From contig NZ_JAJEJT010000003.1 of NCBI RefSeq assembly GCF_021390645.1, forward strand, positions 124,001-188,000: a DNA stretch of 64,000 nucleotides. Reading direction: 5' to 3'. The notes beneath the pieces were generated by a model. That model was given only the letters and a program-made list of their open reading frames with translations, was not told the DNA's origin and searched no databases. Source of the DNA: Paraburkholderia flagellata (GTDB lineage Bacteria; Pseudomonadota; Gammaproteobacteria; Burkholderiales; Burkholderiaceae). A program made the translations under genes and the position numbers. Shown in pieces: positions 1,475 to 17,585 of this stretch. Positions within the stretch are counted from its first letter, which is position 1. Each line of letters opens with the position of its first letter.

Positions 1475-1903
1475 ATGAATTCCATGCCAGCACCGCAATG
1501 GCGTCCGTTCGTGTCGTTCCTCACGCAAGAGTTGACACAGAACCTGACGCCCAGGTTTCTGACCCAGCTCATGCGTGCCGCGGGCGGCCAATTCGCCCGT
1601 CAATATGCGCTTGCCGAGGCGGGCACCGTGGCCGCGATGCGCGAGGCCATGAATCAGGTTTGGGGCGAGCTGGGCTGGGGCCAGGTCGAGATACGCGAGG
1701 CTCAGGACTGGCTGGTGCTCACGCACTACCAGGCGCCGCTCAAGGCCGTATTCGGCGCGGAGAACGTGACTTGGGCCGGGGCTTTCCTCGAGGGCGCCTA
1801 TGAAGCATGGATGCACCAGTTGGGCGCCGATTCGCAGCTGCGAATGACCACGGCAAGTCCTGCGGATGCGTCGGGAACGATGGTTTTCCTGTTCGGTAAG
1901 TAG
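1475..1903 (+). CDS. bcsD: Cellulose synthase subunit D (BcsD)
   Basis: Small periplasmic subunit (142 aa; the Komagataeibacter AxCeSD homologue is about 156 aa) that in known systems assembles glucan chains into ordered, crystalline cellulose. The C-terminal block FLEGAYEAWMHQLGA and the adjacent LTHYQAPL are recognisable BcsD features. No signal peptide is seen, as is normal for this family. The start is taken as ATG 1475; GTG 1472 and ATG 1484 are also in frame and none has a clear ribosome-binding site. It is the first gene of the exopolysaccharide operon and lies about 100 nt ahead of the bcsP-like gene. BcsD points to a class I type of bcs operon. Confidence 0.85.
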   Translation: MNSMPAPQWRPFVSFLTQELTQNLTPRFLTQLMRAAGGQFARQYALAEAGTVAAMREAMNQVWGELGWGQVEIREAQDWLVLTHYQAPLKAVFGAENVTWAGAFLEGAYEAWMHQLGADSQLRMTTASPADASGTMVFLFGK

Positions 1904-1999: not shown

Positions 2000-2503
2000 A
2001 TGAGCAGTGCATCGGACATTGCGAATCTTTTCGAGGTAGTGGACACAAGCCCTTCGCAGTACCAGGAAGTAGAAAGGGCGGAGCAGATGCAAGGTCTGCG
2101 CGGGCGCTGGTCCGTGCTGAACGCGGCGGAGCCGGAGCCCGTTGCGCCCGCGCCAGTGGCGTTGGCGCAGGACGCCGCCGCTGATTCGGCCGATGTTCCC
2201 GATACGACTGATTCATTACCCGACGCGCCCCAGTCGGAGCAGCCGCAATTGCCGCAGTTGCCGCAGTTGCCGCAGTTGCCGCAGTTGCCGCAGTTGCCGC
2301 AGTTGCCGATAGCGTGCTGCATTCCCGCCGCCGCTTCAGAACCTCCCCCTGTCGAGCAGGCCGCCCCCGCGCAGCCTGTCGTTCAATCCATGCCCGAGCC
2401 GGTCGTCGCTGCGCAGCAGTCTGCCGCGTTGAGCAGTGTGTTTGCGCGCCTCATGGAACGCAATGAGCCTCGCGGCGATGTCGCGCAAGGCGGGGCGTCA
2501 TGA
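2000..2503 (+). CDS. bcsP: BcsP-like (BcsR/YhjR-type) proline-rich cellulose biosynthesis protein
   Basis: 167-aa cytoplasmic-looking accessory protein. Residues 5-40 (DIANLFEVVD, QYQEVERAEQ, RWSVLN) resemble the short BcsR/YhjR domain that starts BcsP proteins of beta-proteobacterial bcs operons. The rest is low-complexity Pro/Ala/Gln, including seven consecutive QLP tripeptides (residues 83-103) coded by a 9-bp tandem repeat. There is no signal peptide or TM segment. The stop overlaps the bcsA start (ATGA at 2500-2503), which suggests translational coupling. BcsR/BcsP proteins are thought to control assembly or localisation of the synthase. The family call rests on the N-terminal segment and position, so bcsP is a likely rather than certain name. 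Confidence 0.7.
   Translation: MSSASDIANLFEVVDTSPSQYQEVERAEQMQGLRGRWSVLNAAEPEPVAPAPVALAQDAAADSADVPDTTDSLPDAPQSEQPQLPQLPQLPQLPQLPQLPQLPIACCIPAAASEPPPVEQAAPAQPVVQSMPEPVVAAQQSAALSSVFARLMERNEPRGDVAQGGAS
2246..2308 (+). repeat. In-frame 9-bp tandem repeat (7 units)
   Basis: Seven 9-bp units, one CAATTGCCG followed by six identical CAGTTGCCG, encode (Gln-Leu-Pro)7 inside the bcsP-like gene. Unit gain or loss would change length without shifting the frame. Confidence 0.95.
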
Positions 2504-4746
2504 TCGTCAAACAGAAATCGATGCAGCCGCAACGATCATCCGCCGGCGCTGGGCAAAGTGACGATGCCGGAAACTGGGACGACAAACTCCTGGAAGCGGG
2601 CGCGGCGCTTCTTGCGTCGCGCTGGTCGCGCGTGCTCGTGACGCTGGTGGCAGTGCTGTTGTTCGTGTTCGCCATGACGGTCCACCTGGCCCTGTCGAAG
2701 CAGTGGGCGTTCGCCATTCTTTGCATGGGCGTCGCGATCGCGCTGAGCCGCATTCGCGGCCGCGTCCTCACGGTGTCGCTGGTGGCGCTGTCGGTGTTCA
2801 TGTCGTTGCGCTACCTGTACTGGCGCGTGACGCAGACGCTGTCCTTCACCAACTCGCTGGACAGGACCTTCGGCTATCTGCTGCTGCTGGCCGAAGGCTA
2901 CGCGGTGCTCATGCTGCTGTGCAGCTACTTCCAGACGCTCTGGCCGCTGCACCGCCGGCCTGCGCCGCTGCCGGCCGATACCTCGGCGTGGCCCACGGTG
3001 GACGTGTACATCCCCACCTACAACGAACCGCTCGACGTGGTGCGGCAGTCGGTGCTGGCCGCGACGCTGCTCGACTGGCCGGCCGACAAGTTGCGCGTGT
3101 ACGTACTGGACGACGGCCGTCGTGACGAGTTCCGGGCATTCTGCGAGCAGGCCGGCGTGGATTATCTGACGCGACCCGACAACACGCATGCTAAAGCGGG
3201 CAACCTCAACGCGGCGCTGGCGAAAACGAGCGGCGAATATATCGCCGTGTTCGACTGCGATCACGTCACCACGCGCTCGTTTCTGCAGGTCTGCATGGGC
3301 TGGTTCCTGAAAGATCCGAAGATGGCGATGGTGCAGACGCCGCACGTTTTCTATTCGCCCGATCCGTTCGAGCGGAACCTGGAAACCTACCGAAAGGTGC
3401 CCAACGAGGGCGACCTGTTCTATGGCGTGCTGCAAAACGGCAACGATCTCTGGAACGCCGCGTTTTTCTGCGGGTCCTGCGCGGTGTTGAGACGCTCCGC
3501 GCTCGACGATGTGGGCGGCGTGGCGACCGAAAGCGTCACAGAAGATGCGCTGACCGCGCTCAAGATGAGCATGAAGGGCTACAACACGGGCTACCTCGCC
3601 ATTCCTCAGGCGGCGGGTCTGGCCACCGAGAGCCTGGGCCGGCACATCGGTCAACGGATTCGCTGGGCGCGCGGCATGGCGGAGATCTTCCGCCAGTTCA
3701 ACCCGCTATTGATCTCGGGGCTGACGATTCCACAGCGGCTGTGCTACCTGAGCGCGATGATGCACTTCTTTTTTGGCCTGCCGCGCATCGTGTTCCTGAT
3801 CACTCCCATGGCCTTCCTGTTCTTCGGCGCGCATGTCTTTCATGCGTCGGCGCTGATGGTGCTGGCCTATGTCGTACCGCATCTCGTGATTTCGAGCATC
3901 GGCGCTTCGCGCATTCAAGGACGCTTTCGCCATTCGTTCTGGAGCGAGGTCTACGAAACGGTGCTGGCGTGGTACGTGATTCTGCCCGCGCTGCAGGCCG
4001 TGCTGTTTCCTGGCAGCAGAAGCTTCAACGTGACATCGAAGGGCGGGGTGATCCGGCAGTCCTTCCTGGACTGGGCGATGGCGCGGCCCTATATCGGCTT
4101 GCTGCTCATCAATCTTGCCGGGTTCGCGGTGGGTGTGGCCGGTTTGATCCGCAGCCCCGGCTGGCCCGAGGCGATGAGTATTTTGTTCAACCTGGTCTGG
4201 GTGATCTACAACGTCATGAATCTGAGCGCGGCGGCAGGCGTGGCGTCCGAGTCGAAACAGCTGCGCCTCACGCCGCGCGTGCAGATCGAGTTGCCGGCTG
4301 CGATCCGTCTGGCCGACGGGCGACACGTCGTCTGCCAGACCAGCGACTATTCACAAGGCGGCCTGGGGCTGGTGCTGCCCGAGGACGCGCCACTGCCGCA
4401 GCGCGGCGAGCGCGTCGTGGTCTCCGTCTTTCGCGACGACTACGAGGGCAAGTTCCCAGCCGAGGTGCAGGTGTGCCGCGGCCGCACGGTGGGCGTGAGT
4501 TTCCCGGCCCTGACGATCGATCAGGAACGCGACCTGATGCGCGTGACGTTCTCGCGCGCCGATAGCTGGATCGCCTCCTGGGGCCGCTATCGTCCCGACC
4601 GGCCGTTGCGCAGCCTGTTCGAGGTACTCGGTGTCGGCATGCGCGGCCTGAAGGAGTTGTTCCGCCATCTGTTGCTGGGCGGACGCGAGCGTCTCGCACG
4701 GTCCGCCGAAGCGCAGGCGAGCGAGTTGGGATCGAAGCAATCGTGA
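2500..4746 (+). CDS. bcsA: Cellulose synthase catalytic subunit (UDP-forming) BcsA
   Basis: Inner-membrane processive GT2 enzyme that polymerises UDP-glucose to beta-1,4-glucan and threads it through its own TM channel. 748 aa. TM helices lie at about 44-145. GT2 motifs follow in order: DD at about 203-204, the metal-binding FDCDH (D252, D254), the catalytic TED (347-349) and QRIRW (385-389). More TM helices precede a C-terminal PilZ domain with RxxxR (R589, R593) and DxSxxG (D616, S618, G621). These are the cyclic-di-GMP contacts, so activation by c-di-GMP is expected. The ATG overlaps the preceding stop and bcsB1 starts inside its own stop codon (GTGA). Confidence 0.97.
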   Translation: MIVKQKSMQPQRSSAGAGQSDDAGNWDDKLLEAGAALLASRWSRVLVTLVAVLLFVFAMTVHLALSKQWAFAILCMGVAIALSRIRGRVLTVSLVALSVFMSLRYLYWRVTQTLSFTNSLDRTFGYLLLLAEGYAVLMLLCSYFQTLWPLHRRPAPLPADTSAWPTVDVYIPTYNEPLDVVRQSVLAATLLDWPADKLRVYVLDDGRRDEFRAFCEQAGVDYLTRPDNTHAKAGNLNAALAKTSGEYIAVFDCDHVTTRSFLQVCMGWFLKDPKMAMVQTPHVFYSPDPFERNLETYRKVPNEGDLFYGVLQNGNDLWNAAFFCGSCAVLRRSALDDVGGVATESVTEDALTALKMSMKGYNTGYLAIPQAAGLATESLGRHIGQRIRWARGMAEIFRQFNPLLISGLTIPQRLCYLSAMMHFFFGLPRIVFLITPMAFLFFGAHVFHASALMVLAYVVPHLVISSIGASRIQGRFRHSFWSEVYETVLAWYVILPALQAVLFPGSRSFNVTSKGGVIRQSFLDWAMARPYIGLLLINLAGFAVGVAGLIRSPGWPEAMSILFNLVWVIYNVMNLSAAAGVASESKQLRLTPRVQIELPAAIRLADGRHVVCQTSDYSQGGLGLVLPEDAPLPQRGERVVVSVFRDDYEGKFPAEVQVCRGRTVGVSFPALTIDQERDLMRVTFSRADSWIASWGRYRPDRPLRSLFEVLGVGMRGLKELFRHLLLGGRERLARSAEAQASELGSKQS

Positions 4747-7115
4747 GTCACGCCAATTTCACGCCTTTGCGCGCACTGGCGCGCACGCGCCGGTTGGCGC
4801 CGCTGTGGGGTTCGGTGCTCGCCGCGCTCGCGCTCGGCGCCAACGTTGCGCTGGCCGCAAGCGCGCCTATCGCGCCCGGCGTATCGGCGCCGACGTTCGC
4901 CTCGCAGGCCGTGGCCTTGCCATCGCCTCAGGCCATGCAGCCAGCCGCCGCCGACTCGGCCGACACCTATACCTACCGCATCCCGCTACTGCGGCAAAAC
5001 GCTGGCCAGGGGCTGACCTTGCTCGGCGAGGACGCCTATGGCGGCATGGACTTCGGTTTGCGCCGCGATGAGCGCGTGGTCAGCGCGCGCCTCGTGCTCG
5101 ACTACCGCTATTCGCCCACGTTGCTTCCCACGCTCTCGCATCTCAATGTGCTGCTCAACAGCGTGGTGGGGGCGACGATTGCGTTGCCCGAACCCGCGCC
5201 GCGCACGTCGACGCAAGTGACAGTGGATCTGCCGGTTTCGCTGCTCACCGAGTTCAACCATCTCAACCTGGAGTTGATTGCTCACAGCAAGGCCAGCGAT
5301 CAGGGCAATGATCCGCTGAGTCCCGACCTGTGGCTGAAGGCCAGCCCGCAGAGCGCGCTCGAACTGACCGTGGCGAGCGCAGCGCTCGCTAGCGACCTGT
5401 CGCAACTGCCCGCGCCGTTTTTCGATGCGCGCGACGTGCGCAGGGTGAACCTGCCGGTCGTGCTGCCGCGCACCCCGGGAACGGGCCGCCTCGAATCCGC
5501 GGGGATCGTCGCCTCGTGGCTGGGCGCGCAGGCGGGTTATCGCGGCTCGCACTTTTCCGCAAGCTTCGGCGCGGTGCCCGCGCATGGCCATGCCGTCGTA
5601 CTGGCGCTGCACGACGAGTTGCCGGGCCTGGGCTTTGCCCCGCTCGCGATGGACGGTCCGAGCGGTCCGACGCTGGCGATCGTGCCCAACCCCAACGACC
5701 CCAACGGCAAGGTGCTCCTGGTCATGGGCCGCGACGAGCCGCAACTGCGCACGGCGGCAATGGCGCTGGTGCTGGGCGCGAAGACACTTGCCGGCCCTCA
5801 GGTGCGCATCGACGGCCCGGTTTCCGTGGCGCCGCGCAAGCCTTTCGACGCACCGAACTGGCTGCCTGGCGACCGCGCGGTGGAGCTGGGCGAACTGCTC
5901 CCGGCGGACCGGTTCACGATCCAGGGCTTGCGTCCCGGCGCGATCGATGTGGACCTGCGCCTGCCGCCGGGCTTGTTCGCTTTCAACAACGCCGGTGCGG
6001 TGCTGAATCTGCGTTATCGCTATACAGCGCGCCCGGAGTCCAGGCATTCGGAGCTGCACGTGCTGGCGGGCAACACGCCGCTCGCAGCATTGCCGCTCGC
6101 TGGCGACGCGTCGGACGGCCATGCCGTGATTCGTATTCCTACGTATCTGCTTCCGCCGTTGACGACGCTGCAATTCGACTATCGCTACGAGGCCGTCAAG
6201 ACAAAGGACCATTGGCAGGACGTGCCCGGCGGCCCGCTGCTGAGCGCCATCGATCCGACTTCGACGATCGACATTTCGCAGTTGCCGCGTTACACGGCCA
6301 TGCCGGATCTGGGCGCTTTCGTCAACGCGGGCTTTCCGTTCACGCGCCTCGCCGATCTGTCCGAAACCGCGGTGATCCTGCCGACACAGCCGGTCGCGGA
6401 CGACTATTCCGCGTATCTGACGCTGATGGGCAGCATGGGTCAGGCCACCGGTTATCCGGTGCTGGGCGTGACGGTGGGCAATCCGGCTCAGGTCGAAGCG
6501 CTGCGCCACAAGGACTTGCTCGTGCTGGCTTCGGGCGACAACCAGCCTTTGCTCAAGACGTGGCGTGCCGATCTGCCGCGCGGGTTCTTCGCCCCGGACA
6601 CGGCGCCTGGCAACTGGCTCGCCAGGTGGTCGGACAAGCTGACCGGCGGTCAGGCGCAAGCGAGGCGCGAAGCCGATATCGCTGCGCTCTATCGTAGCGA
6701 CGACCATGACGGCATGGTGGCCGGGTTCGAGTCGCCGCTGGCGCATGGCCGCAGCGTGGTGCTCGTATCGGGCAATACGCCGGGCGGCCTCAGTGCGGTC
6801 GCGGACGCGCTGCAAACGCGCCGCTACCGCGTCGACGACACGATCGGCGGCAGCCTCGTGGTCGTGAATGACGGCATCCTCACCACGCTGAACAAGGACC
6901 AGAGCTATTTCATCGGGTCCTTACCGCCTCGGCTCGCCATCGAGTGGTTCTTCGCGAGTCACATCGTGCTGCTGCTCGTGGCGACGCTCGTCAGCGTCGT
7001 GCTCATCGGTTTGCTCGGCGGCGTACTCCTGCATCGGCGCGCCCTGAACCGCCTGAACCTGGACATCCCCCAGACATCGCAACGTGAAGAAGGACGACGA
7101 GGTTTTCATGTTTAA
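4743..7115 (+). CDS. bcsB: Cellulose synthase subunit B, cysteine-free paralogue (BcsB1)
   Basis: Periplasmic, membrane-anchored partner of BcsA that guides the nascent glucan; 790 aa. The GTG start overlaps the bcsA stop. It has an N-terminal signal (about 1-40, ending VALAAS), alternating carbohydrate-binding and flavodoxin-like domains (PNPNDPNGKVLLVMGRD, APNWLP, AGFPFTRLADLSET) and a C-terminal TM helix (IVLLLVATLVSVVLIGLLGG). It aligns end to end with the next gene. However, the protein has no cysteine at all, and positions equivalent to C176 and C491 of BcsB2 are changed (DQGNDP and KDHWQD). Either this is a specialised second BcsB, or one copy is structural and the other is redundant. 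Confidence 0.93.
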   Translation: MSHANFTPLRALARTRRLAPLWGSVLAALALGANVALAASAPIAPGVSAPTFASQAVALPSPQAMQPAAADSADTYTYRIPLLRQNAGQGLTLLGEDAYGGMDFGLRRDERVVSARLVLDYRYSPTLLPTLSHLNVLLNSVVGATIALPEPAPRTSTQVTVDLPVSLLTEFNHLNLELIAHSKASDQGNDPLSPDLWLKASPQSALELTVASAALASDLSQLPAPFFDARDVRRVNLPVVLPRTPGTGRLESAGIVASWLGAQAGYRGSHFSASFGAVPAHGHAVVLALHDELPGLGFAPLAMDGPSGPTLAIVPNPNDPNGKVLLVMGRDEPQLRTAAMALVLGAKTLAGPQVRIDGPVSVAPRKPFDAPNWLPGDRAVELGELLPADRFTIQGLRPGAIDVDLRLPPGLFAFNNAGAVLNLRYRYTARPESRHSELHVLAGNTPLAALPLAGDASDGHAVIRIPTYLLPPLTTLQFDYRYEAVKTKDHWQDVPGGPLLSAIDPTSTIDISQLPRYTAMPDLGAFVNAGFPFTRLADLSETAVILPTQPVADDYSAYLTLMGSMGQATGYPVLGVTVGNPAQVEALRHKDLLVLASGDNQPLLKTWRADLPRGFFAPDTAPGNWLARWSDKLTGGQAQARREADIAALYRSDDHDGMVAGFESPLAHGRSVVLVSGNTPGGLSAVADALQTRRYRVDDTIGGSLVVVNDGILTTLNKDQSYFIGSLPPRLAIEWFFASHIVLLLVATLVSVVLIGLLGGVLLHRRALNRLNLDIPQTSQREEGRRGFHV

Positions 7116-9486
7116 AAGACGGCCTGCTATCTCCCGGGCACGCCTCGCGCGTTGCATGACCGTACAGCCAGCGTTGCGGGCGTTGCCGGCGCTGCTGCTC
7201 GGCTGCATCTTCGCCTCGGCGGCGCACGCCCAGGACGCGGCAAGCGGCAATGCCGCCAACAACGCACAGGCGCAGCCCGCTGCGGCCACAGCAGCTGCGG
7301 CGTCGAGCGTGACCTGGTCGTTGCGGCAACTGGGTGCGCAATATGCGCTCAACCTGCGCGGTGTCGACGGCAGCAATACGCTGCCGGTTGGCGTGCGCGA
7401 CGATCAGGTCGTGAGCGGTGCGCGCCTGAATCTGCGTTACGCGTATTCTCCGGCGCTGCTGCCCGATGTCTCGCACATCAACGTGCTGGTCAACGACCAG
7501 GTGGCGGCCTCGATCGCGGTGCCGAAGGACACGGCGGGTGCGAGCCTGCAGCGCACGATCGCGCTGCCGGCGTACCTGTTCACGGCGAACAGCAAGTTGC
7601 GTCTGCAACTGATCGGCCACTACACCACGCAGTGTGAAGACCCGCTGCATTCCAGCCTGTGGGCCAACATCAGCAACGAAAGCACGCTGACCATCGACAC
7701 GCAGCCGTTGCCGCAGGCCAACGATCTGGCGCACCTGCCAAAGCCGTTCTTCGACGGCCAGGACATCCGCCGGCTGAACCTGCCGGTCGTGTTCGCAGGC
7801 AATCCCGATGCGGCCGCGCTGGAGGCGGCCGGCGCCGTCTCGTCGTGGTTCGGCGCATTGGCGAGCTATCGAGGCGCGGACTTCCCGGTGTCGCTCTCCA
7901 CTGTGCCCGCACAGGGCAACGCTGTCGTCATCGTGGAAGGCGCGCAGCAGGCGGCGCTCGCCGGCGCAATGCTGCAAGGACCGACGCTCGCCATCGTCAG
8001 CAACCCGAACGATCCCAACGGCAAGCTGCTGCTCGTCATGGGCCGCGATGGCAAGGAACTCAAGCAGGCGGCGGATGCGCTGGTAACAGGCAGCCAGACG
8101 CTTTCGGGCCCGAGCGCGCTCATCACGCATTTCGCCGATCTCGCGCCGCGCAAACCCTATGACGCGCCGCGCTGGCTGCGCACCGACCGTCCCGTGTCGT
8201 TCGGTGAACTGATCGACACCAAGCAGTTGAGCGTGTCGGGCTACAGCCCCGACCTCATCCGCATCGCTACGCGTGTGCCGCCCGACCTGTTCGGCTGGCA
8301 TGCGCCCAACGTGCCGATCGACCTGCATTACCGCTATACGCCGCAGCCGTATATGGTCAATTCGTCGCTGTTGTTCAGCGTCAGCGACCAGTTCATGAAG
8401 TCCATTCCGCTGTTGCCGCTCGAGCGCCTCGAAGGCGGCGACAAGCTGCGCGCCGAAGTGCTGCCCGACAGCAGCCTGCCGCGTCAGGCGAAACTGGAAG
8501 TGCCGCTGCAAACGCTCCTGCAGCCGAACACGCAGCTGCAGTTCCGCTACATGTACGACTACATCAAGCAGGGCGAGTGCCGCGACATCATCATCGACAA
8601 CGTGCGCGGCGCGATCGGGCCCGATTCGACGATCGATCTGTCGACGTATCCGCACTACATCGCGATGCCGAACCTGGCCGCGTTCGCGCAGGCGGGTTTC
8701 CCGTTCACGCGCATGGCCGACCTGTCCGAGACGGACGTCGTGCTCGGCGCCAATGCGGGGCCGCAGGAATACAGCACGTATCTGGCCGTCATGGGCCGCA
8801 TGGGCGAGTCGACCGGCTACCCGGCGCGCGGCGTGACCGTGCTGCGCGGCCAGCGTATCGACGCGATGCCAGCGGCGAAGGACCTGCTCGTGATCGCCTC
8901 GGGTGCCGATCAAGCCTGGCTCAAGGACTGGGCGCGATACATGCCCGCAGCGTATGACCATGGGGCGCAGTTCTCGCTCTCGGATCTGCCGGGCCGCGTG
9001 CGCGGGTGGATCCACGCCAATCCGCGTCTGGACACGGCACCCGGGCGTCTTTCGCTTGCCTGGACGGGGTCGGGCGTGAGCGCGGTGCTGGCGGGGTTCG
9101 AGTCGCCGAAGGAGGCGGGCCGCAGCGTGGTGATGCTGGTCAGCAATCAGCCCGAAGGCCTGAAGGATGCGGTCTCGGCGCTGCTGGGCGTGCCGGGCTA
9201 CGACAAGCAGCCCATCCAGGGCAGCCTCGTGTCCATTCGCGGCCAGGAGGTCGATTCGCTCATGGGCGAGCACACCTATTACGTCGGGCATCTGGGTCTC
9301 TGGCGCGGCCTCGACTGGTGGCTCGCATCACTCGGCTTGTCGCTCGAGGCGGTGCTCAAGGCGCTGGGTGCAGTCGCGCTCGTGGCGGGCGCAGCAGGCC
9401 TCTATGTCTTCTTGCGGCGCCGTCAGGCCCGGCGTGACGCCGAAGCCAGCACGCGGTTGCAGGTCGAGCAGCACGTGGAATCTTGA
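7108..9486 (+). CDS. bcsB: Cellulose synthase subunit B, canonical paralogue (BcsB2)
   Basis: Second complete BcsB, 792 aa from ATG 7108. A GTG at 7084 is in frame, but GAGG lies just ahead of 7108, which overlaps the bcsB1 stop. Signal peptide about 1-34 (ending SAAHAQ). Family blocks include TTQCEDPLHSSLW, PNDPNGKLLLVMGRD, GAIGPDSTIDLS and AGFPFTRMADLSET, with a C-terminal TM helix (VLKALGAVALVAGAAGLYVF) and basic tail. The mature protein has exactly two cysteines, C176 and C491, at conserved BcsB positions, which suggests a disulfide. It sits where bcsZ (endoglucanase) is usually found between bcsB and bcsC, and no bcsZ is visible in the window. Confidence 0.95.
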   Translation: MFKRRPAISRARLARCMTVQPALRALPALLLGCIFASAAHAQDAASGNAANNAQAQPAAATAAAASSVTWSLRQLGAQYALNLRGVDGSNTLPVGVRDDQVVSGARLNLRYAYSPALLPDVSHINVLVNDQVAASIAVPKDTAGASLQRTIALPAYLFTANSKLRLQLIGHYTTQCEDPLHSSLWANISNESTLTIDTQPLPQANDLAHLPKPFFDGQDIRRLNLPVVFAGNPDAAALEAAGAVSSWFGALASYRGADFPVSLSTVPAQGNAVVIVEGAQQAALAGAMLQGPTLAIVSNPNDPNGKLLLVMGRDGKELKQAADALVTGSQTLSGPSALITHFADLAPRKPYDAPRWLRTDRPVSFGELIDTKQLSVSGYSPDLIRIATRVPPDLFGWHAPNVPIDLHYRYTPQPYMVNSSLLFSVSDQFMKSIPLLPLERLEGGDKLRAEVLPDSSLPRQAKLEVPLQTLLQPNTQLQFRYMYDYIKQGECRDIIIDNVRGAIGPDSTIDLSTYPHYIAMPNLAAFAQAGFPFTRMADLSETDVVLGANAGPQEYSTYLAVMGRMGESTGYPARGVTVLRGQRIDAMPAAKDLLVIASGADQAWLKDWARYMPAAYDHGAQFSLSDLPGRVRGWIHANPRLDTAPGRLSLAWTGSGVSAVLAGFESPKEAGRSVVMLVSNQPEGLKDAVSALLGVPGYDKQPIQGSLVSIRGQEVDSLMGEHTYYVGHLGLWRGLDWWLASLGLSLEAVLKALGAVALVAGAAGLYVFLRRRQARRDAEASTRLQVEQHVES

Positions 9487-9499
9487 TCAGGGATCGTTC

Positions 9500-12400
9500 A
9501 TGTTAGTCAGCCGCAGCCAGGCCTGCATTCTGGGTCTTTTGCTCACCTCGGTCGGCCACACGGTGTGGGCACAGGACACTTCCAGAATGCTGCTGGAGCA
9601 GGGCCGCTATTGGCAGTCGCACGACAAGCCCGATCTGGCCGCGCAGTCGTGGTCGAAACTGCTGATGGTTGATCCTAAGCAGCCCGAAGGGCTTTACGGC
9701 ATGGGTTCGATTGCTGTCGGCAAGCGGCAGTTTTCTGTAGCCAGCGATTACCTCGTCAAGCTGCGCGCGGCCGCGCCCGACAGCCGCCTCGTGCCCTTGC
9801 TCGAACAGGACTTGCGCCTCGCGGTCGAGCCGGCCAGGTCCACGCTCGCCAAGGCGCGCCTGATGGCGCAGGACGCCGTCAACCAGAACGACCCGAAAGC
9901 GCTGTCGGCTGCCATCGCGCTCTACGACAAGGCATTGGGCGGCAAGGTGCCGCAAGGCAGCGTGGCGCGCGAGTACTACACCTATCTCGGTTATACGGAG
10001 GGCGGCATCGATGCGGCCGTTCAGGGCCTCACGCGCCTGAATGCCGATATGCCCAACGATCCGTACGTCCCGTTGTCGCTGGCCCTGCATCAGGTGCGCG
10101 ACGAACGCGATCGCGCAGCAGGCGTCGCCTTGCTGGAAAAGCTGGCGGCGCGTCCCGATATCGGCGGCGCAGCGACTGACGTCTGGCGCTCCGTGCTGAC
10201 CTGGGTGACGCCCACGCCGAAAAACCGCGCGTGGTACGAGGACTATCTGAAACTGCATCCCGACGACGACGAAATCCGTCATCAGATGGTCTCGTCGCAC
10301 CCGGCTGGCTCGCCCGGCGCCACTGCCGCGCCGGTCATGGACCCGCGCCTGACGCGCGGTTTCGCCGCGTTCAAGGCAGGCGACATCACCACGGCCGAGC
10401 AATCTTTTACCGCCGTCCTGCGCGACAAGCCCGACGATACCGACGCACTGGGCGGCCTCGGCCTCGTGCGCATGCAGCAGGGCGATCTGGCGCAGGCGCA
10501 GTCGCTGCTATCGCGTGCAGCGGCGCACCACGGTGCGGCTGCGAACTGGAGCAAGGCGCTCAATTCCGCGCGCTACTGGCAACTGGTCAATCAGGCCGAA
10601 GGCGCACAGAGCGCGGGCGACTATGCCACCGCGCGGCGCGATCTCGACCAGGCGCTGCGGCTCGATCCCGTCGAGCCGGGTGGGCGCAACGCGTCGGCGC
10701 GCCTCTATGCGGCGCAAGGCGATCTAAGCCGTGCCGAAAAGGTCTACAGGGACGTGCTGGCAAGCAGTCCGAACAATGCGGAGGCGGTCAGCGGGCTCAT
10801 CGATATCCTCGCGCAGACGGGCCGCGCGGACGAGGCGCAGAAGTGGGTCGACGGCATGCCGCCCGAACAGCAGGCCGGCATCGGCGGACTGGGGCGCTTG
10901 CGAGCCGCCGTCGCCTCGGGGCGTGCGGACGCCGCGGAACAGCGCGGCGATGTGGACGCGGCGCGCCGCATCCTCGAGGACGCGCAGCGCGCCGATCCCG
11001 ACAATCCGTGGCTGCGTCTGGAACTGGCGCGCTTCGAGTTGCAGCAGGGCCATGCCGACACCGCGCGGGAACTCGTCGACGGTCTGCTTGCCTCGAACCC
11101 CGACAATTCCGACGCGCTATACGCCAGCGCGCTGCTGGCGATGCAGATGAGCGACTGGACGCGCGCGCAGGACACGATGGCGCGCATCCCCGCCGCCGCA
11201 CGCACGCCGAACATGGTTGCCACGGCGCAGCAGATCGATTTCCAGGCAGTGGCGGCGCAAGCTTCGCAACTGGCGCGCGACGGCAATCTGGACGACGCGC
11301 GCAACATGCTGGCGCGACTCGAACCGGCGGCGGGCAAGGATCCGGTGAGGGTGAGCGCGCTGGCCTCGGCCTATGTCGATGCGGGGAATCTGCCGCACGC
11401 GACGGGCCTGATGCACGGGCTGATGCCCAACGGCATGAAGGGCAGCGGCCCGGATGTGCAACTGGCCTATGTGACCCTGCTGCTCAAGACCGGCCAGAAC
11501 GTCCAGGCCCAGCTTGCGATCCGCGAAATGCAGGGCGAAACCCTGACCGCGGACCAGCGTCGTCAACTGGACGACCTGAGCTACCTCTACGCTGTGCGCC
11601 TCGCCGACCAGCAGCGCCAGCAAGGCGACCTGGCGCAGGCCTACGACACGCTGGCACCGATCCTCGCGAAGCGGCCCAACGACAGCCTGGCGACCGCCGC
11701 GCTCGCGCGCATGTACGCCGCCGACGGACAGTACGAGCACGCACTCGCGCTCTATCAGAAAGCGCTCGCTAATGATCCCGACAATCCGGGCCTGCAATTG
11801 GGCGCTGCGATGGCGGCGGTGCAGGCCGGCAAGAACGACGTCGCGGATACGGCGTTGAAACAAGCTGTCGCGAAGGCGCCCAGTGATCCCGACGTGCTGG
11901 CTGGCGCCGCGCGCATTTACGTCATGCAGGGCAAGACTCGCGAGGCGCAGGCGTTGCTGGAAACGGCCATCGCCGCCAAGGAAAAGCGCCTGGGCGTGCA
12001 GGCGCAGGACGGCCACGTGCCGGGCAACCCCTTCGTGCACGACGACGATACGCATCGTCGCGCGGCGCGGCAGACGCGCCAGGCGAGCGCGAATCCATTT
12101 GCCGCGCAGGGTACGGCCACCGTCGCGACCGACGGTGTCTACGCCAGGGAGGCGAGCACGGCGGACGTTCTCGGGTCCGCTTCGGTGATCTCCGCATCGA
12201 CCATGACAGCGTCAGCCTCGACGGGATCCACAACGGCTGCCGCGCGCTCGCCGTCCCGGGCGGGCACCTTGCCGACCGTGGCGGGCACGCCGATCGGCGC
12301 GCAGGCGCCGCAGGACGCGGTGGCTGCGAGCGCGCCTCAGGACGGCTCCATCTCGCTCGACGACATGCGCAGCGAACTCGACGACATCCGTTCGCAGCGC

Positions 12401-13564
12401 TCGCCGGAAATCCGCGGCGGCCTGTTCGTCACGTCGAACAACAGTACTGGCGGCACATCGCAGTTGACGGGCGTGCAACTGCCCACGGAAGTCCTGCTTC
12501 CGGCCGGCAACGGCAAGCTGTCGCTGCGCGTGACGCCTGTCGATCTCAATAGCGGCACGCTCGGCACCTCTGCCTACAGCAGCAGCCAGTTTGGCGGCGG
12601 CCCGGCGGCGGCGCAGGCACAGGCAAACGGCAGTGTTGCCGCTCCAGCTTCGCAGACCGCGCGTGGTGTCGGCCTGGGCGTGGGCTATGAGACCCGCAAT
12701 TGGACGGCTGACGTTGGCACGACGCCTTTGGGCTTCCAGTACACGAATGTCGTTGGCGGCGCGACATTCAAGAGCGCCATCGATGCGGCGCAGGGCGGCT
12801 GGTTCAACGCGGGCGTCTCGCGGCGTGCCGTGACCGACAGCATCACGTCGTTCGCAGGCACGAGCGATGCACGCTCGGGGTTGAGCTGGGGTGGCGTCAC
12901 GGCCACTGGCCTGCATGGCGCGATCGGCCTCGACAATCAGGACTACGGCGTCTACGGCTACGGTTCCGTGAAGTATCTGGACGGGCATAACGTCCAGTCC
13001 AACGAGGGCGCCGAAGTGGGCGCGGGCGTGTACTGGTACTTGCATCGCACGGCCGACAGCATGCTGACCGCGGGCCTGAACTTGAGCGGCGAGTTCTATC
13101 ACCACAACGAGAACAACTTCACCTACGGTAACGGTGGCTATTTCAGCCCACAGCGCTTCTATGCATTCACGGTGCCGCTCACGTGGGCGCAGCGCTCGGA
13201 GCGCTGGACCTACAAGCTGCAGGGCGCGGCCGGTTTGCAGTACTACCACCAATCCGCCGCGCCGTATTTCCCGACCGACAGCGCGCTGCAATCGGCTGCC
13301 GTGACGGCGGCATCATCGCTCGGATTGTCCGACGGGGCGATCCATCCCGCGCAGTCGTCGACCGGCATTGGCTACAACCTGCTCGCTACCGCCGAATACC
13401 GCTTTAGCAACCATCTGAGCGCCGGGGCCTCCGCGGGCGCCAACAACTCGTCCAGTTACCGGCAGTGGGTCGCGGGCCTCTATGTGCGCTTTAGCTTCGC
13501 TCCGCAGACGAAGGCGCTGGACATGCCGGTCGTGCCTTACCAGTCGCACTACAGCGATCAATAG
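9500..13564 (+). CDS. bcsC: Cellulose export outer-membrane protein BcsC
   Basis: 1354-aa exporter that takes the glucan across the periplasm and outer membrane. The ATG at 9500 starts a clear signal peptide (MLVSRSQACILGLLLTSV...VWAQ); the frame is open further upstream, but that part overlaps bcsB2 and is not needed. Residues about 30-930 are a long array of TPR-like helices (patterns such as DPKQPEGLYGMG, PDDTDALGGLGLVRMQQGDLAQA, PDNPGLQLGAAMA). A Ser/Thr/Ala-rich linker follows at about 855-945. From about 954 to the end is the BCSC_C beta-barrel, ending RQWVAGLYVRFSFAPQ. The size fits the family (about 1150-1350). It starts 13 nt after bcsB2. Confidence 0.95.
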   Translation: MLVSRSQACILGLLLTSVGHTVWAQDTSRMLLEQGRYWQSHDKPDLAAQSWSKLLMVDPKQPEGLYGMGSIAVGKRQFSVASDYLVKLRAAAPDSRLVPLLEQDLRLAVEPARSTLAKARLMAQDAVNQNDPKALSAAIALYDKALGGKVPQGSVAREYYTYLGYTEGGIDAAVQGLTRLNADMPNDPYVPLSLALHQVRDERDRAAGVALLEKLAARPDIGGAATDVWRSVLTWVTPTPKNRAWYEDYLKLHPDDDEIRHQMVSSHPAGSPGATAAPVMDPRLTRGFAAFKAGDITTAEQSFTAVLRDKPDDTDALGGLGLVRMQQGDLAQAQSLLSRAAAHHGAAANWSKALNSARYWQLVNQAEGAQSAGDYATARRDLDQALRLDPVEPGGRNASARLYAAQGDLSRAEKVYRDVLASSPNNAEAVSGLIDILAQTGRADEAQKWVDGMPPEQQAGIGGLGRLRAAVASGRADAAEQRGDVDAARRILEDAQRADPDNPWLRLELARFELQQGHADTARELVDGLLASNPDNSDALYASALLAMQMSDWTRAQDTMARIPAAARTPNMVATAQQIDFQAVAAQASQLARDGNLDDARNMLARLEPAAGKDPVRVSALASAYVDAGNLPHATGLMHGLMPNGMKGSGPDVQLAYVTLLLKTGQNVQAQLAIREMQGETLTADQRRQLDDLSYLYAVRLADQQRQQGDLAQAYDTLAPILAKRPNDSLATAALARMYAADGQYEHALALYQKALANDPDNPGLQLGAAMAAVQAGKNDVADTALKQAVAKAPSDPDVLAGAARIYVMQGKTREAQALLETAIAAKEKRLGVQAQDGHVPGNPFVHDDDTHRRAARQTRQASANPFAAQGTATVATDGVYAREASTADVLGSASVISASTMTASASTGSTTAAARSPSRAGTLPTVAGTPIGAQAPQDAVAASAPQDGSISLDDMRSELDDIRSQRSPEIRGGLFVTSNNSTGGTSQLTGVQLPTEVLLPAGNGKLSLRVTPVDLNSGTLGTSAYSSSQFGGGPAAAQAQANGSVAAPASQTARGVGLGVGYETRNWTADVGTTPLGFQYTNVVGGATFKSAIDAAQGGWFNAGVSRRAVTDSITSFAGTSDARSGLSWGGVTATGLHGAIGLDNQDYGVYGYGSVKYLDGHNVQSNEGAEVGAGVYWYLHRTADSMLTAGLNLSGEFYHHNENNFTYGNGGYFSPQRFYAFTVPLTWAQRSERWTYKLQGAAGLQYYHQSAAPYFPTDSALQSAAVTAASSLGLSDGAIHPAQSSTGIGYNLLATAEYRFSNHLSAGASAGANNSSSYRQWVAGLYVRFSFAPQTKALDMPVVPYQSHYSDQ

Positions 13565-13639: not shown

Positions 13640-14305
13640 ATGGCAGCTACAGCCTCCGTTTTGTTGGGTCTTTCCGTGCTGGTCATCGGGGAAAGCCATC
13701 TGAGCTTGAACAATCATTTGCGCGAGCCGCTCGTGCAAAGCCTGCAGGCGCAGGGCGCCGCGCACGTGCACGTGGTGGGCGCGTGCGGTGCGAGCCCGGC
13801 GCGCTGGCTCAAGAGCACGCCCGTCGATTGCGGTGCCGATCAGGTGGACAAACGTCCGGCCACGGTGCTGGGCAAAGAGGCGCACACGACGCCCATCGCC
13901 GATCTGATCCACGCCGACAAACCCGATCTGGTGGTGGTCGTCGAAGGCGACACCATGGGTTCGTACGACAAGCCGGCCTTTCCCAAGGCGTGGGCGTGGC
14001 AGGAAGTCACGAGCTTGACCCGGGCCATCGCCGATACGCATACGGCGTGCGTCTGGGTCGGGCCGGGCTGGGGCGGCCACAGCGGGCAATACGCCAAGGG
14101 CGACGACCGGGTGAGGGAATTGTCCGCGTTCCTCGCGAACAACGTCGCGCCTTGCACGTATATCGATTCCACCACCTTCGCCAAACCCGGACAGTGGCAG
14201 ACGCTCGACGGCGAGCACTACACGCAGGTGGGCTACGCCGCGTGGAGCAAGGCTATCGTCAACGCGATGGCGAATTCGCCCTCGGTTCCGGGTCTGAAAA
14301 AATGA
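13640..14305 (+). CDS. wssF: SGNH-like protein of the cellulose acetylation module (WssF-like)
   Basis: 221-aa protein with SGNH/GDSL-type blocks: VIGESH near the N-terminus (candidate nucleophile S19) and DGEHYTQVGY near the end (D190, H193). The N-terminal hydrophobic stretch (about 4-16) may anchor or export it. In the Pseudomonas fluorescens wss operon, WssF sits at the same place, directly after the BcsC homologue and before the AlgF/I/J-like acetylation genes, and has been proposed to help pass acyl groups. It has AGGAG before ATG 13640, and its stop overlaps the next start (ATGA at 14302). The symbol is assigned by position and family, not by alignment. Confidence 0.7.
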   Translation: MAATASVLLGLSVLVIGESHLSLNNHLREPLVQSLQAQGAAHVHVVGACGASPARWLKSTPVDCGADQVDKRPATVLGKEAHTTPIADLIHADKPDLVVVVEGDTMGSYDKPAFPKAWAWQEVTSLTRAIADTHTACVWVGPGWGGHSGQYAKGDDRVRELSAFLANNVAPCTYIDSTTFAKPGQWQTLDGEHYTQVGYAAWSKAIVNAMANSPSVPGLKK

Positions 14306-15000
14306 CGAAAAACTGCTTCTCCCGTCTGTTTCTGTCCGGCCTCGCGTTGTCCGCTTGCGGTTTGTCGGTGCAGCCGGCCGCAGCCGCCGATATCCTGTTG
14401 TATCCGACCGGGCCCGCGCAGGATTCGTCATTCGTGCGATTCGTCGATGGTGGTTCGCATCCGGTCGACGTGACCGCGGCCGGGTCGAAAGCGCGCCTGT
14501 CGCTCGACGCCGCGAACCCGGCCAGCCAGTTCTTTCCGATCGCGGCTGGCAAACCGGTGGCCGGCACGTTGACGACCGGTAGCACGCGCCACGATGTGTC
14601 GGCGACGGTGCAGCCCGGCGAGTTCGTCAGCATCGTCGCGCTCGATGGGGCGGACAAAACGACAGGCACGCACGCCGTGACGATCCGCGAAAAACCGGAC
14701 GATTTCAACGCGCTCAAAGCCTCGGTGGGCTTTTACAACCTCGATGCGCGGTGCGCCACGCCCGCGTTGAAAGTGCCGGGCCGCGACATCGTGCTGCTCG
14801 ACGGCGTGGCCGCGGGGCAGAGCAAGCGCCGCCAGGTCAACCCGGTCGCGCTATCGGTGCAACTGGCGTGCGGCGGCCAGCCTGTGGGCCAGCCGCTGAG
14901 CCTGGGCACGCTCGTGGCGGGACAGCGCTATACGGTGTTCCTCGTGCCGGGCGGAGCACAGTCGCGCATTTTCTTTGCGAACGACGCGGTGAGCCGCTGA
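14302..15000 (+). CDS. wssG: AlgF-like periplasmic acetylation protein (WssG-like)
   Basis: 232 aa with signal peptide (cleavage near AAAADILLYP). The start of the mature chain, DILLYPTGPAQDSSFVRFVDG, and the domain ending FFANDAVSR match the AlgF family. AlgF forms part of the alginate O-acetylation complex with AlgI and AlgJ. The WssG homologue does the corresponding job for cellulose acetylation in fluorescent pseudomonads. Translationally coupled to the gene before it (ATGA overlap) and only 4 nt ahead of the AlgI-like gene. Confidence 0.8.
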   Translation: MTKNCFSRLFLSGLALSACGLSVQPAAAADILLYPTGPAQDSSFVRFVDGGSHPVDVTAAGSKARLSLDAANPASQFFPIAAGKPVAGTLTTGSTRHDVSATVQPGEFVSIVALDGADKTTGTHAVTIREKPDDFNALKASVGFYNLDARCATPALKVPGRDIVLLDGVAAGQSKRRQVNPVALSVQLACGGQPVGQPLSLGTLVAGQRYTVFLVPGGAQSRIFFANDAVSR

Positions 15001-15004
15001 TCGC

Positions 15005-16414
15005 ATGGTCTTCGCGTCCCTCGAATTCCTGACGCTGTTTCTGCCGGCCTTCCTCGCGATCTACGTCGCGTCGCCTGCGCGCTGGCGCAACGGGGTGCTG
15101 CTCTTTTGCAGCTGGTTCTTCTACGCCTGGTGGAGCCCGGTCTTTCTGCTGCTGTTCATTGCGCTGACGTTCTGCGGCTGGCTCGGCGGCGTGGTGATCG
15201 ACAGGGCGCCGAGCCCGCGGGCGCGCGGTGGATGGCTGGCGGTCTTCATCGCCGTGAACGTCGCGATCCTGTGCTGGTACAAGTACGCCAACATCGTCGT
15301 CGATAGCCTCGACAATGTGCTGGCGGCAGGCCATGCCGGGCCGATTCCCTGGCAACACGTCGTGCTGCCCATCGGGCTGTCCTTCATCGTGCTGCAGTCC
15401 GTCTCGTACCTGATCGACGTGCAGCGCGGCACGGTGCCGGCCGACCGCAGCGTGATCCGCTACGGGGCTTATCAGGGAATGTTCGTACACCTGATCGCCG
15501 GGCCGATCATTCGCTATGCCTGGGTCAAGCGCGAGCTGGTGTCGCGCACGGTCGACTGGGACGCTTTTGCGGCCGGTGCGCGGCGGCTCATGGTAGGGAT
15601 GAGCATGAAGGTGCTGGTGGCCGACACGCTTTCGCCCATCGTCGACGCGGTCTTCGCCATGCATGCGCCGACGCTGGCGGACGCATGGCTCGGCTGCGGC
15701 TTCTACACGCTGCAGCTGTTCTTCGATTTCGCGGGCTATAGCGCGATGGCCATCGGGTTGGGGCAGATGCTGGGCTTTCGCTTTCCCGAGAACTTCAACC
15801 ATCCGTACCTCGCGAGCAGCATTCAGGACTTCTGGCGTCGCTGGCATCTGTCGCTATCGAGCTGGATTCGCGACTACCTGTACATCCCGCTAGGCGGCAA
15901 CCGCGACGGCGAATGGCAAACCTGCCGAAACCTGTTGCTGACGATGGCGATCGCGGGTCTATGGCACGGCGGCGATAGCTGGAACTTCCTGCTGTGGGGT
16001 ATCGCTCACGGTGTCGCGCTGACGGTGGCGCGCCTGTGGCGCCGCCTCGGCATGGCCGCCGTGCCGCTCTGGCTATCGCACGTGCTGACGATCGTCTTCG
16101 TCATGCTTGCCTGGACGCTGTTCCGGGCGGTGGGCTTTCAGGCGGCGCTCGCCATGTACCGTGGCCAGTTCGGCTTGAACGGAATGGGCTTGAGCGACGC
16201 GACGCTCGTGCTGCTGCGGCCTGTGCATGCGCTGGCCGCCGCGCTCGGCATCGTTTGTGTGCTGCTGCCGGTCTGGCAATCGCGCTGGGACCGCGTGGCC
16301 GATACGGCGCAGGGAAGGCTGTGGCAAGCCGTATGGCCGCTCGCGGGCTTTCTGCTGTCGTTCGGGTTGATCGTCGCGCGTGGCGCGGTGCCTTTCCTTT
16401 ATTTCCAGTTCTGA
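15005..16414 (+). CDS. wssH: MBOAT O-acyltransferase, AlgI-like (WssH-like)
   Basis: 469-aa polytopic inner-membrane acyltransferase that moves an acetyl group from a cytoplasmic donor to the periplasmic side for polysaccharide O-acetylation. Typical AlgI/DltB features are FASLEFLTLFLP at the start, DFAGYSAMAIGLGQMLGF, the RRWHLSLSSWIRDYLYIPLGGN block, and the invariant histidine in LWHGGDSWNFLLWG (H321). Many TM helices are evident throughout. It lies between AlgF-like and AlgJ-like genes, so it is the membrane acyltransferase of the cellulose-modification module. Confidence 0.9.
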   Translation: MVFASLEFLTLFLPAFLAIYVASPARWRNGVLLFCSWFFYAWWSPVFLLLFIALTFCGWLGGVVIDRAPSPRARGGWLAVFIAVNVAILCWYKYANIVVDSLDNVLAAGHAGPIPWQHVVLPIGLSFIVLQSVSYLIDVQRGTVPADRSVIRYGAYQGMFVHLIAGPIIRYAWVKRELVSRTVDWDAFAAGARRLMVGMSMKVLVADTLSPIVDAVFAMHAPTLADAWLGCGFYTLQLFFDFAGYSAMAIGLGQMLGFRFPENFNHPYLASSIQDFWRRWHLSLSSWIRDYLYIPLGGNRDGEWQTCRNLLLTMAIAGLWHGGDSWNFLLWGIAHGVALTVARLWRRLGMAAVPLWLSHVLTIVFVMLAWTLFRAVGFQAALAMYRGQFGLNGMGLSDATLVLLRPVHALAAALGIVCVLLPVWQSRWDRVADTAQGRLWQAVWPLAGFLLSFGLIVARGAVPFLYFQF

Positions 16415-16418
16415 CGCC

Positions 16419-17585
16419 ATGGACGATCCCAAGCCGCTACCGCAATTGCCCGCTACGCGCGCCGGCAAGGTCGTTGCCGTCATCCTGATGGGCTTTCTGT
16501 TCGCGGGCCTCATTTTCAATATCCAGTTCGCCTCGACGACGGCGTCGCTGTTGCCGCACGCGCTCACGCGTTCAGGCATGCTGGACGGCGCCGTATCGAA
16601 AGAACTCGCCAGCCGCATGGCCGATACGCCGATCGCCGCCGACGCCGCACGCATGCAGCGCGCGCTGGGCTGGCTTGCGCTGGGCGATCTGGGCCCACGC
16701 GTGCGGCAGGGCTGTCCCGGCTGGCTGTTCCTGCGAGACGAACTGAACGTTTACGCCGACAGCGAGCGCCATCTCGCGACGCGCGCCGCCACGGTTGCCG
16801 CCGTACAGCGTGAGCTGGCGCGTCACGGCATTGCGTTGCTCGTCGCCGTGGTGCCCGACAAGTCGCGCATCGAGCCGCAACATCTGTGCGGGCTCTATCG
16901 GCCTGCATCGCTGAGTGCGCGTCTGGGCGACTGGACATCGCGTCTGGCCGCCGATGGCGTGCCGGTGGTCGACCTGGGTTCAGCGCTGCACGGCGTGCCG
17001 GGCGACGCGTTCTTCCGGACCGACACACACTGGACCCAGGACGGCGCGGGCGCTGCGGCGCTGGCGGTCGCGCAGCGCATCCGGGCGATGGGCGAGGCGC
17101 CGGTTTCGAGCGTTTCGAGCCAGCCCGGCTACCGCGTCGCCGACAAGCCGGCAGCACGCCGGCCCGGCGATCTCGTGCGACTGGCCGGCCTCGATGCGTT
17201 GCCGGTGTCCTGGCAGCCGAGAGCGGAGATCGTGCCCGGCCGGGACTACGTTCATGTGGCCCAGGCGGCTTCGTCGGCTGACGATCTGTTCGGCGATGCC
17301 GATCTGCCGACTATCGCGGTGATCGGCACATCGTATTCGACGACGTCCGACTTCGTGCCTCAACTCGCGTTGGCGCTGGGGAAGGGCGTGGGGAATTTCG
17401 CGCGCGAAGGTGCCAGGTTTGGTGGCTCGGCGCGCGCGTACTTCGCGAGCGCGGCGTATGCCCAAACGCCGCCCAAACTTATCGTTTGGGAATTGGACGA
17501 ACGGGATTTGCAGGCGCCGCTCGAAGCGGAAGATGACGTCGTCGTGCCGGGATCCGGTGCGGTTGGCACGGTGGCTTCGCGTTGA
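16419..17585 (+). CDS. wssI: AlgJ/AlgX-like O-acetyltransferase (WssI-like)
   Basis: 388-aa type II membrane protein with one N-terminal TM (VVAVILMGFLFAGLIFNI, about 19-36) and a periplasmic SGNH-like acetyltransferase domain of the ALGX/DHHW type. DTHW at residues 202-205 supplies the catalytic Asp-His, and GTS (S305) in VIGTSYST is the likely nucleophile. It probably takes acetyl from the MBOAT partner and attaches it to the glucan. The start is ATG 16419, 4 nt after the MBOAT stop; an upstream in-frame extension overlaps that gene. Last gene of the operon, followed by a long hairpin at 17593-17627. Confidence 0.85.
   Translation: MDDPKPLPQLPATRAGKVVAVILMGFLFAGLIFNIQFASTTASLLPHALTRSGMLDGAVSKELASRMADTPIAADAARMQRALGWLALGDLGPRVRQGCPGWLFLRDELNVYADSERHLATRAATVAAVQRELARHGIALLVAVVPDKSRIEPQHLCGLYRPASLSARLGDWTSRLAADGVPVVDLGSALHGVPGDAFFRTDTHWTQDGAGAAALAVAQRIRAMGEAPVSSVSSQPGYRVADKPAARRPGDLVRLAGLDALPVSWQPRAEIVPGRDYVHVAQAASSADDLFGDADLPTIAVIGTSYSTTSDFVPQLALALGKGVGNFAREGARFGGSARAYFASAAYAQTPPKLIVWELDERDLQAPLEAEDDVVVPGSGAVGTVASR

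Follow-up and report, generated by a model that had tools for sequence, protein, structure and literature searches.

The wss operon of Pseudomonas (wssA-I/J), which makes acetylated cellulose, has one wssC. The type II Bcs macrocomplex of E. coli is described as one BcsA with a hexamer of identical BcsB (PMC11470070; PMC11379886), and its operon has one bcsB gene. For Bordetella avium 197N, a tandem wssC in the operon for acetylated cellulose has been reported; it was termed unique and unseen in bcsB loci, and a divergent transport mechanism was suggested for it (PLoS Comput Biol 2020, PMC7112194). The stretch of DNA analysed here (the window) is 64,000 nucleotides of Paraburkholderia flagellata (assembly GCF_021390645.1, contig NZ_JAJEJT010000003.1, positions 124,001 to 188,000 of the forward strand), and the closest named relatives are Paraburkholderia. 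Like Bordetella avium 197N, it holds two adjacent BcsB/WssC genes, bcsB1 and bcsB2, in an operon with acetylation genes, that is, two genes where E. coli type II has one. Beyond the Bordetella avium case, Paraburkholderia, Robbsia-type and other genomes share this duplication, together with an asymmetry between anchor and periplasmic part and a later loss of cysteines. It is proposed, as a reading that is modestly favoured here, that one old duplication has divided the job of BcsB, with BcsB1 docking on BcsA and BcsB2 supplying the other protomer(s) of a mixed assembly.

The tandem as such is already known from Bordetella avium, and its breadth, age and asymmetry are new relative to the open-licence papers searched; the wider spread, the single old origin and the division of features were not found in that literature, in which only PMC7112194 was relevant. 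PMC9012009 was discarded as a report of two BcsB, the "two bcsB" in its wording being two mutants in bcsB.

Two complete copies from an old duplication

The features of the two genes, with positions in the window, are as follows:

4743..7115, + strand: BcsB1, the first copy (T1 lineage), cysteine-free, with a conserved C-terminal anchor
5304..5306, + strand: G188 of BcsB1, aligned with the first conserved Cys position
6213..6215, + strand: W491 of BcsB1, aligned with the second conserved Cys position
6927..7061, + strand: interface helix and transmembrane anchor of BcsB1, residues 729-773, helices in the predicted model
7108..9486, + strand: BcsB2, the second copy (T2 lineage), with the Cys pair kept, more canonical carbohydrate-binding domains (CBDs) and an altered anchor
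7633..7635, + strand: Cys176 of BcsB2
8578..8580, + strand: Cys491 of BcsB2
9298..9480, + strand: interface helix and transmembrane anchor of BcsB2, residues 731-791, helices in the predicted model

Both genes are placed between bcsA and bcsC, and the coordinates and letters show that bcsA and bcsB1 overlap by 4 bases and bcsB1 and bcsB2 by 8 bases. The frames are open throughout: BcsB1 has 790 amino acids from a GTG start, and BcsB2 has 792 from the ATG at 7108, a provisional start taken from the original prediction, the open reading frame opening mechanically at GTG 7084 (800 amino acids). Positions 4-606 of 606 of PF03170 are covered by both proteins (609.9 bits for BcsB1, 715.1 bits for BcsB2), which are 41% identical over 699 alignment columns including 71 gaps (BLASTP, E 4e-139). 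The CBD-FD-CBD-FD fold of solved BcsB structures is found in both copies, FD1 and FD2 are detected in each, and the predicted models end in a C-terminal helix of transmembrane length (741-773 in BcsB1, 746-791 in BcsB2). Thus the claim of two complete tandem BcsB subunits, from which the present work started, is borne out by full-length frames, whole-profile matches, fold and C-terminal helix, and both copies are real and selected.

A BcsB match occurs in 129 of the 144 genomes of the window's genus, and a BcsB1 orthologue (71-100% identity) in 17 of the 144, always adjoined by BcsB2 (17 of 17) and without internal stops. In the family sample of 398 genomes, further BcsB1 orthologues (67-74%) were found in three genomes of two other genera, paired in all three; the tandem is also present in all four named Achromobacter/Bordetella (Alcaligenaceae) loci and, in the order sample of 399 genomes, in G823, a genome of another family. 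Outside the order, neighbouring BcsB genes were seen in none of the 17 BcsB-matching genomes besides the host (class sample, 229 genomes, many matches weak), the double BcsB matches of this sample having fallen in frames of equal length, that is, in one gene. P0105-P0107 were excluded from every count.

Two trees were built, the first from 82 of 112 rows with all columns, and the second from 46 of 120 rows with the anchor and cysteine columns removed and without a mixture model; the two agree. In the second tree, the 18 first copies are united in a single group (support 100/99), and 10 second copies join the single-copy BcsBs of f8/g126 (100/97), the second copies by themselves having support of 86/73. 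The first-copy group spans the Paraburkholderia/Robbsia type, Bordetella/Achromobacter and one further family, whose first copy (L081, from G823) is a long branch of less sure placement. In the approximately unbiased (AU) test, forcing the Paraburkholderia-type copies together, a grouping named after the 82-row tree had been seen, costs 484 log-likelihood units (p 1.1e-6). Judging from these comparisons, the tandem is one old duplication, neither local nor recent: a recent or local event is ruled out by the 41% identity, the trees and the AU test, and separate duplications in the Paraburkholderia type and the Alcaligenaceae are contradicted by both trees, the AU test bearing on the Paraburkholderia type only. 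The whole operon may have been transferred between lineages. The phylogeny called for in the original prediction has therefore placed first and second copies in separate groups with a single old origin, and the degenerate clade that it had feared for BcsB1 did not appear, as neither broken frames in BcsB1 nor internal stops in the 17 carrying genomes were found.

Opposite divergence of anchor, periplasmic part and cysteines

Domain profiles were trained on 34 BcsBs that occur singly and do not belong to the tandem group (11 g3 and 9 f8/g126 singles were left out; 8 of the 34, from the class sample, are unplaced in the tree, and some gave no anchor score), and 20 tandem pairs were scored (the window, L005-L018, L019-L022 and G823). 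The borders, in E. coli numbering and from the authors' reading of the alignment, were CBD1 60-206, FD1 221-354, CBD2 366-530, FD2 531-715, interface helix 722-741 and transmembrane segment (TM) 742-775. For the anchor, i.e., interface helix plus TM, T1 scores above T2 in 20 of 20 pairs, by 21.8 bits on average, and for each of CBD1, FD1 and CBD2, T2 scores above T1 in 20 of 20 pairs. The T1 anchors of Alcaligenaceae reach 66-73 bits and the anchors of T2 in general 18-35 bits; the f8/g126 BcsBs, which have no partner and fall with T2 in the tree, have a more canonical anchor of 56-64 bits (4 of 9 scored). The CBD2 residues D401, N434, F437 and H525 (E. coli numbering) have mostly been replaced in the first copies of the two larger lineages, and the second copies mostly keep D401, F437 and H525, N434 not being kept.

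The ratio of TM to periplasmic divergence served as a control for ordinary drift. Its medians are 1.03-1.61 in three groups of singles; first copies have 0.54 and 0.27, second copies 2.32 and 2.43. In two lineages, both copies thus fall outside what singles show, the first below and the second above. At the nucleotide level (9 genomes, 36 pairs), the proportion of nonsynonymous differences (pN) is 0.062 in B1 and 0.162 in B2 for the TM, and 0.112 and 0.055, respectively, for the periplasmic part; the whole-gene median ratio of nonsynonymous to synonymous rates (dN/dS) is 0.23 for B1 and 0.165 for B2. At the level of sequence constraint, the anchor of the first copy is thus tightly held while its carbohydrate-binding domains have drifted, and the second copy is the reverse, with the Cys pair kept.

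These results bear on the idea of two alternative homomeric machines, in which BcsA would work with BcsB1 or BcsB2 according to condition, each doing the full job. The complete BcsB fold with anchor in both copies and the purifying selection on both agree with it, but the genes overlap, which makes separate regulation awkward, and opposite wear of anchor and periplasmic part in the same three lineages (two for the divergence ratios) is not expected of two complete alternatives; such machines are distinctly unlikely.

As for the cysteines, BcsB1 has none, and BcsB2 has C16, C33, C176 and C491, of which the mature chain holds two provided that the signal peptide extends to residue 33 or beyond. 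The corresponding claim made from the sequence, that BcsB1 lacks cysteine and the mature BcsB2 keeps C176 and C491 only, with G and W of BcsB1 in their places, is correct, these residues being G188 and W491. In 198 aligned BcsB rows (196 distinct, many close kin), both members of this pair are present in 147, neither in 49 and one in 2, so that their occurrence together is no accident; the pair is widespread and lies outside the family definition, and BcsB2 has it and BcsB1 does not. The 49 pair-less rows comprise BcsB1, the relatives that share at least 66% identity with it, P0033 among them, and P0034. Besides P0034, two of them (P0006 and P0025) carry one cysteine elsewhere in the mature chain, so that "no cysteine at all" is true of BcsB1 and most, not all, of its relatives. 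The trees place P0033 and P0034 as the next branches outside the Paraburkholderia/Robbsia-type first copies; P0035, which lies one node beyond them, has the complete pair. Since the pair-less rows are the relatives of BcsB1 plus P0034 while P0035 further out keeps both, the pair was lost jointly, most simply once, within the first-copy lineage after the duplication. Joint presence and joint loss also suggest a C176-C491 disulfide; a printed report of a BcsB disulfide was not evident from a literature listing alone, and the main text of PMC11470070 contains neither "disulfide" nor "cysteine". P0033, P0034 and P0035 are intermediate between Bordetella-type and cysteine-free first copies, and P0033, named Bordetella sp. 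FB-8 and 66% identical to BcsB1, hints at transfer. P0045, with the source name Bordetella avium, falls in the T1 group and is only putatively the wssC copy of PMC7112194.

That the missing cysteines, to which the original prediction drew attention, are the key to the difference between the copies is not supported: in Bordetella, Achromobacter and G823 the pair is present in the first copies, which nevertheless show the same split between anchor and periplasmic part, so that cysteine loss as the cause of specialisation was rejected.

It could also be supposed that BcsB1 only adds dosage or is slowly decaying, with no distinct job, as its periplasmic part evolves faster and it is without an otherwise near-universal cysteine pair. 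This is very improbable in view of the absence of internal stops in the 17 carrying genomes of the genus, the dN/dS of 0.23, the single origin of the first copies of three lineages, and a TM that, measured against the periplasmic part, is held more tightly than the TM of single copies.

The acetylation operon around the tandem

The remaining features of the cluster are the following:

1475..1903, + strand: BcsD-like gene at the cluster start (PF03500, E 1.4e-20)
2000..2503, + strand: BcsR/BcsP-like gene with a Pro-Gln-Leu repeat (PF10945, E 8.5e-9; BcsP_of_Ic, E 5.5e-8, below the curated cut-off)
2500..4746, + strand: BcsA, the catalytic cellulose synthase with PilZ domain (profile matches, TIGR03030 above cut-off)
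9500..13564, + strand: BcsC, TPR and outer-membrane barrel (start 9500 picked by eye)
13783..15000, + strand: WssF/AlgF-like gene of the acetylation cassette (PF11182, E 3.6e-6, below cut-off; start position provisional)
15005..16414, + strand: MBOAT O-acyltransferase, WssH/AlgI-like (PF03062, E 1.4e-23)
16380..17585, + strand: AlgX-like SGNH acetyltransferase, WssI-like (PF16822, E 3.5e-76)

Judged by gene content, the cluster is a bcsD-containing operon for acetylated cellulose. The PF03500 match at 1475-1903 supplies the bcsD of type I bcs operons, and the acetylation genes of a wss operon, AlgF-like (below cut-off), MBOAT and AlgX, adjoin bcsABC at 13783-17585. Like the Pseudomonas wss operon, the window has WssF-, WssH- and WssI-like genes; unlike it, it has a second bcsB and a bcsD, and its operon lacks bcsZ. 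Compared with E. coli type II, the acetylation cassette and bcsD stand in place of BcsE and BcsG, to which no match was found in the window's first 30 kb. The run of Pro-Gln-Leu-coding repeats inside the bcsR/bcsP-like gene (2242-2308) is perhaps variable in length.

Operon content in other genomes was taken from BLASTP on frames of at least 100 amino acids, the main comparison of stretches covering the operon strand. WssF-, MBOAT- and AlgX-like genes are present in the window and in 20 of 20 long tandem stretches, 16 of which have a BcsD match; that is, the tandem is found within acetylation operons. Among 20 single-BcsB stretches, 4 have the cassette, all of f8/g126 (L140-L143, with one BcsB and no bcsD match), and 16 are without it, one of these being only 7.6 kb long. 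L144 (G685:C12), counted among the 16, has BcsA and BcsB within one long open frame, like a fused BcsAB, and no acetylation match. The original suggestion that one copy might serve the acetylated chain is thus upheld in part: the cassette accompanies the tandem in the window and all 20 stretches, but acetylation does not require two BcsB, because 4 of the 20 single-BcsB stretches also carry it.

The same cassette raises the possibility that a re-shaped anchor lets BcsB2 dock on BcsA, BcsB1 being an added subunit whose conserved anchor is for another membrane partner, e.g., the MBOAT acetyltransferase. Three observations agree with this arrangement: the constant presence of the cassette, the position of the E. 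coli modification enzyme BcsG, which is packed in between BcsA and BcsB number six, and the interface helix, for which T2 outscores T1 in 16 of 20 pairs. The T1 anchor, however, resembles that of the singles, 16 of whose 20 stretches are without acetylation genes, so that it more likely serves the shared partner BcsA, and the f8 operons combine the cassette with one BcsB. This arrangement is considered unlikely.

A bcsZ/wssD gene, which belongs to a wss operon, is lacking from the window's operon, and a comparison of both strands gave no match to E. coli BcsZ in the first 30 kb of the window or in L112-L130. The window, at 9486-9500, and 19 other Paraburkholderia/Robbsia-type stretches thus have no bcsZ in the operon; it is present in G823 and L019-L022. 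GH8 genes lie elsewhere, on other contigs or far off, in 18 of the 20 genomes with a bcsZ-less operon (none in G158 and G193). It has been reported that cellulose secretion in E. coli needs cellulase activity (PMC11379886).

A third full BcsB exists in the 9.0 Mb host genome, in a separate bcs cluster with BcsE-, BcsG- and BcsZ-like genes; with this second cluster of the E. coli type (L150, G000:C4:246500-266400), the host may make two differently modified celluloses. A weak BcsB match (L004, G000:C1:1976935-1977342; 23 bits, in a 768-amino-acid open reading frame) is perhaps a distant BcsB-like protein from another polysaccharide system.

A proposed division of labour in the cellulose synthase

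In the proposed division, one BcsB1 would dock its tail anchor in the groove of BcsA, at the place of the first of the six E. coli BcsB protomers, and support synthesis there, and BcsB2, with a more generic anchor, would form the protomer(s) next to it and provide both the path for the carbohydrate and the onward connection to BcsC. Together they would give a mixed assembly, BcsA-BcsB1-(BcsB2)n, that makes acetylated cellulose and in which n may stand for either an E. coli-like crown or a 1:1:1 complex. The mixed ring suggested in the original prediction is in this form the preferred reading, in which each copy would have a role of its own. Whether the assembly is obligately heteromeric, with one gene for the single BcsA-docking, activating protomer and the other for the remaining protomers, is evenly balanced.

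Several observations weigh against this division. The docking of BcsB1 on BcsA is itself deduced from sequence, and AlphaFold2 models of both copies align through the TM to E. coli BcsB in the BcsA complex (9b8v_G, 7lby_B). The TM alone is better in T1 in 18 rather than 20 of 20 pairs, and the amphipathic interface helix alone in only 4; the Paraburkholderia-type T1 anchor has itself drifted, to 39-47 bits against a single-copy median of 77. The groove of BcsA has drifted too in tandem operons, because their TM1-3 profile score has a median of 112 against 170 in the singles, on which the profile was trained; this drift speaks for neither copy as the docking one. If the FD2 of protomer 1 is free, that domain should be relaxed in T1; such relaxation was looked for and not seen (T1 above T2 in 9 of 20 pairs), and T1 as a crown-end subunit with relaxed FD2 was given up. 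In CBD2, the f8 singles have also lost D401 (4 of 5) and F437 (5 of 5); in CBD1, it is the Paraburkholderia-type T2, not T1, that has lost the conserved F100 and N168, and N168 lies beside the BcsC-contact loop, so its loss argues against the idea that contact with BcsC is kept by T2 only. The pairs of one lineage do not count as independent cases, and the lineages number three, one with a single pair. Lastly, a type I BcsAB complex has been reported as 1:1, so that a crown is not assured.

If the assembly is obligately heteromeric in this way, positions that are chemically the same in E. coli would be told apart by their genes here, and a crown's stoichiometry and subunit order could be read and altered gene by gene. 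In E. coli, position-specific needs are hard to test, as one mutation hits all six BcsB. With the docking position split off, the special role of the first protomer would become separable and crowns outside enterobacteria would become testable, for which the f8/g126 operons, with the same kind of acetylation cassette and one BcsB, are a ready natural comparison.
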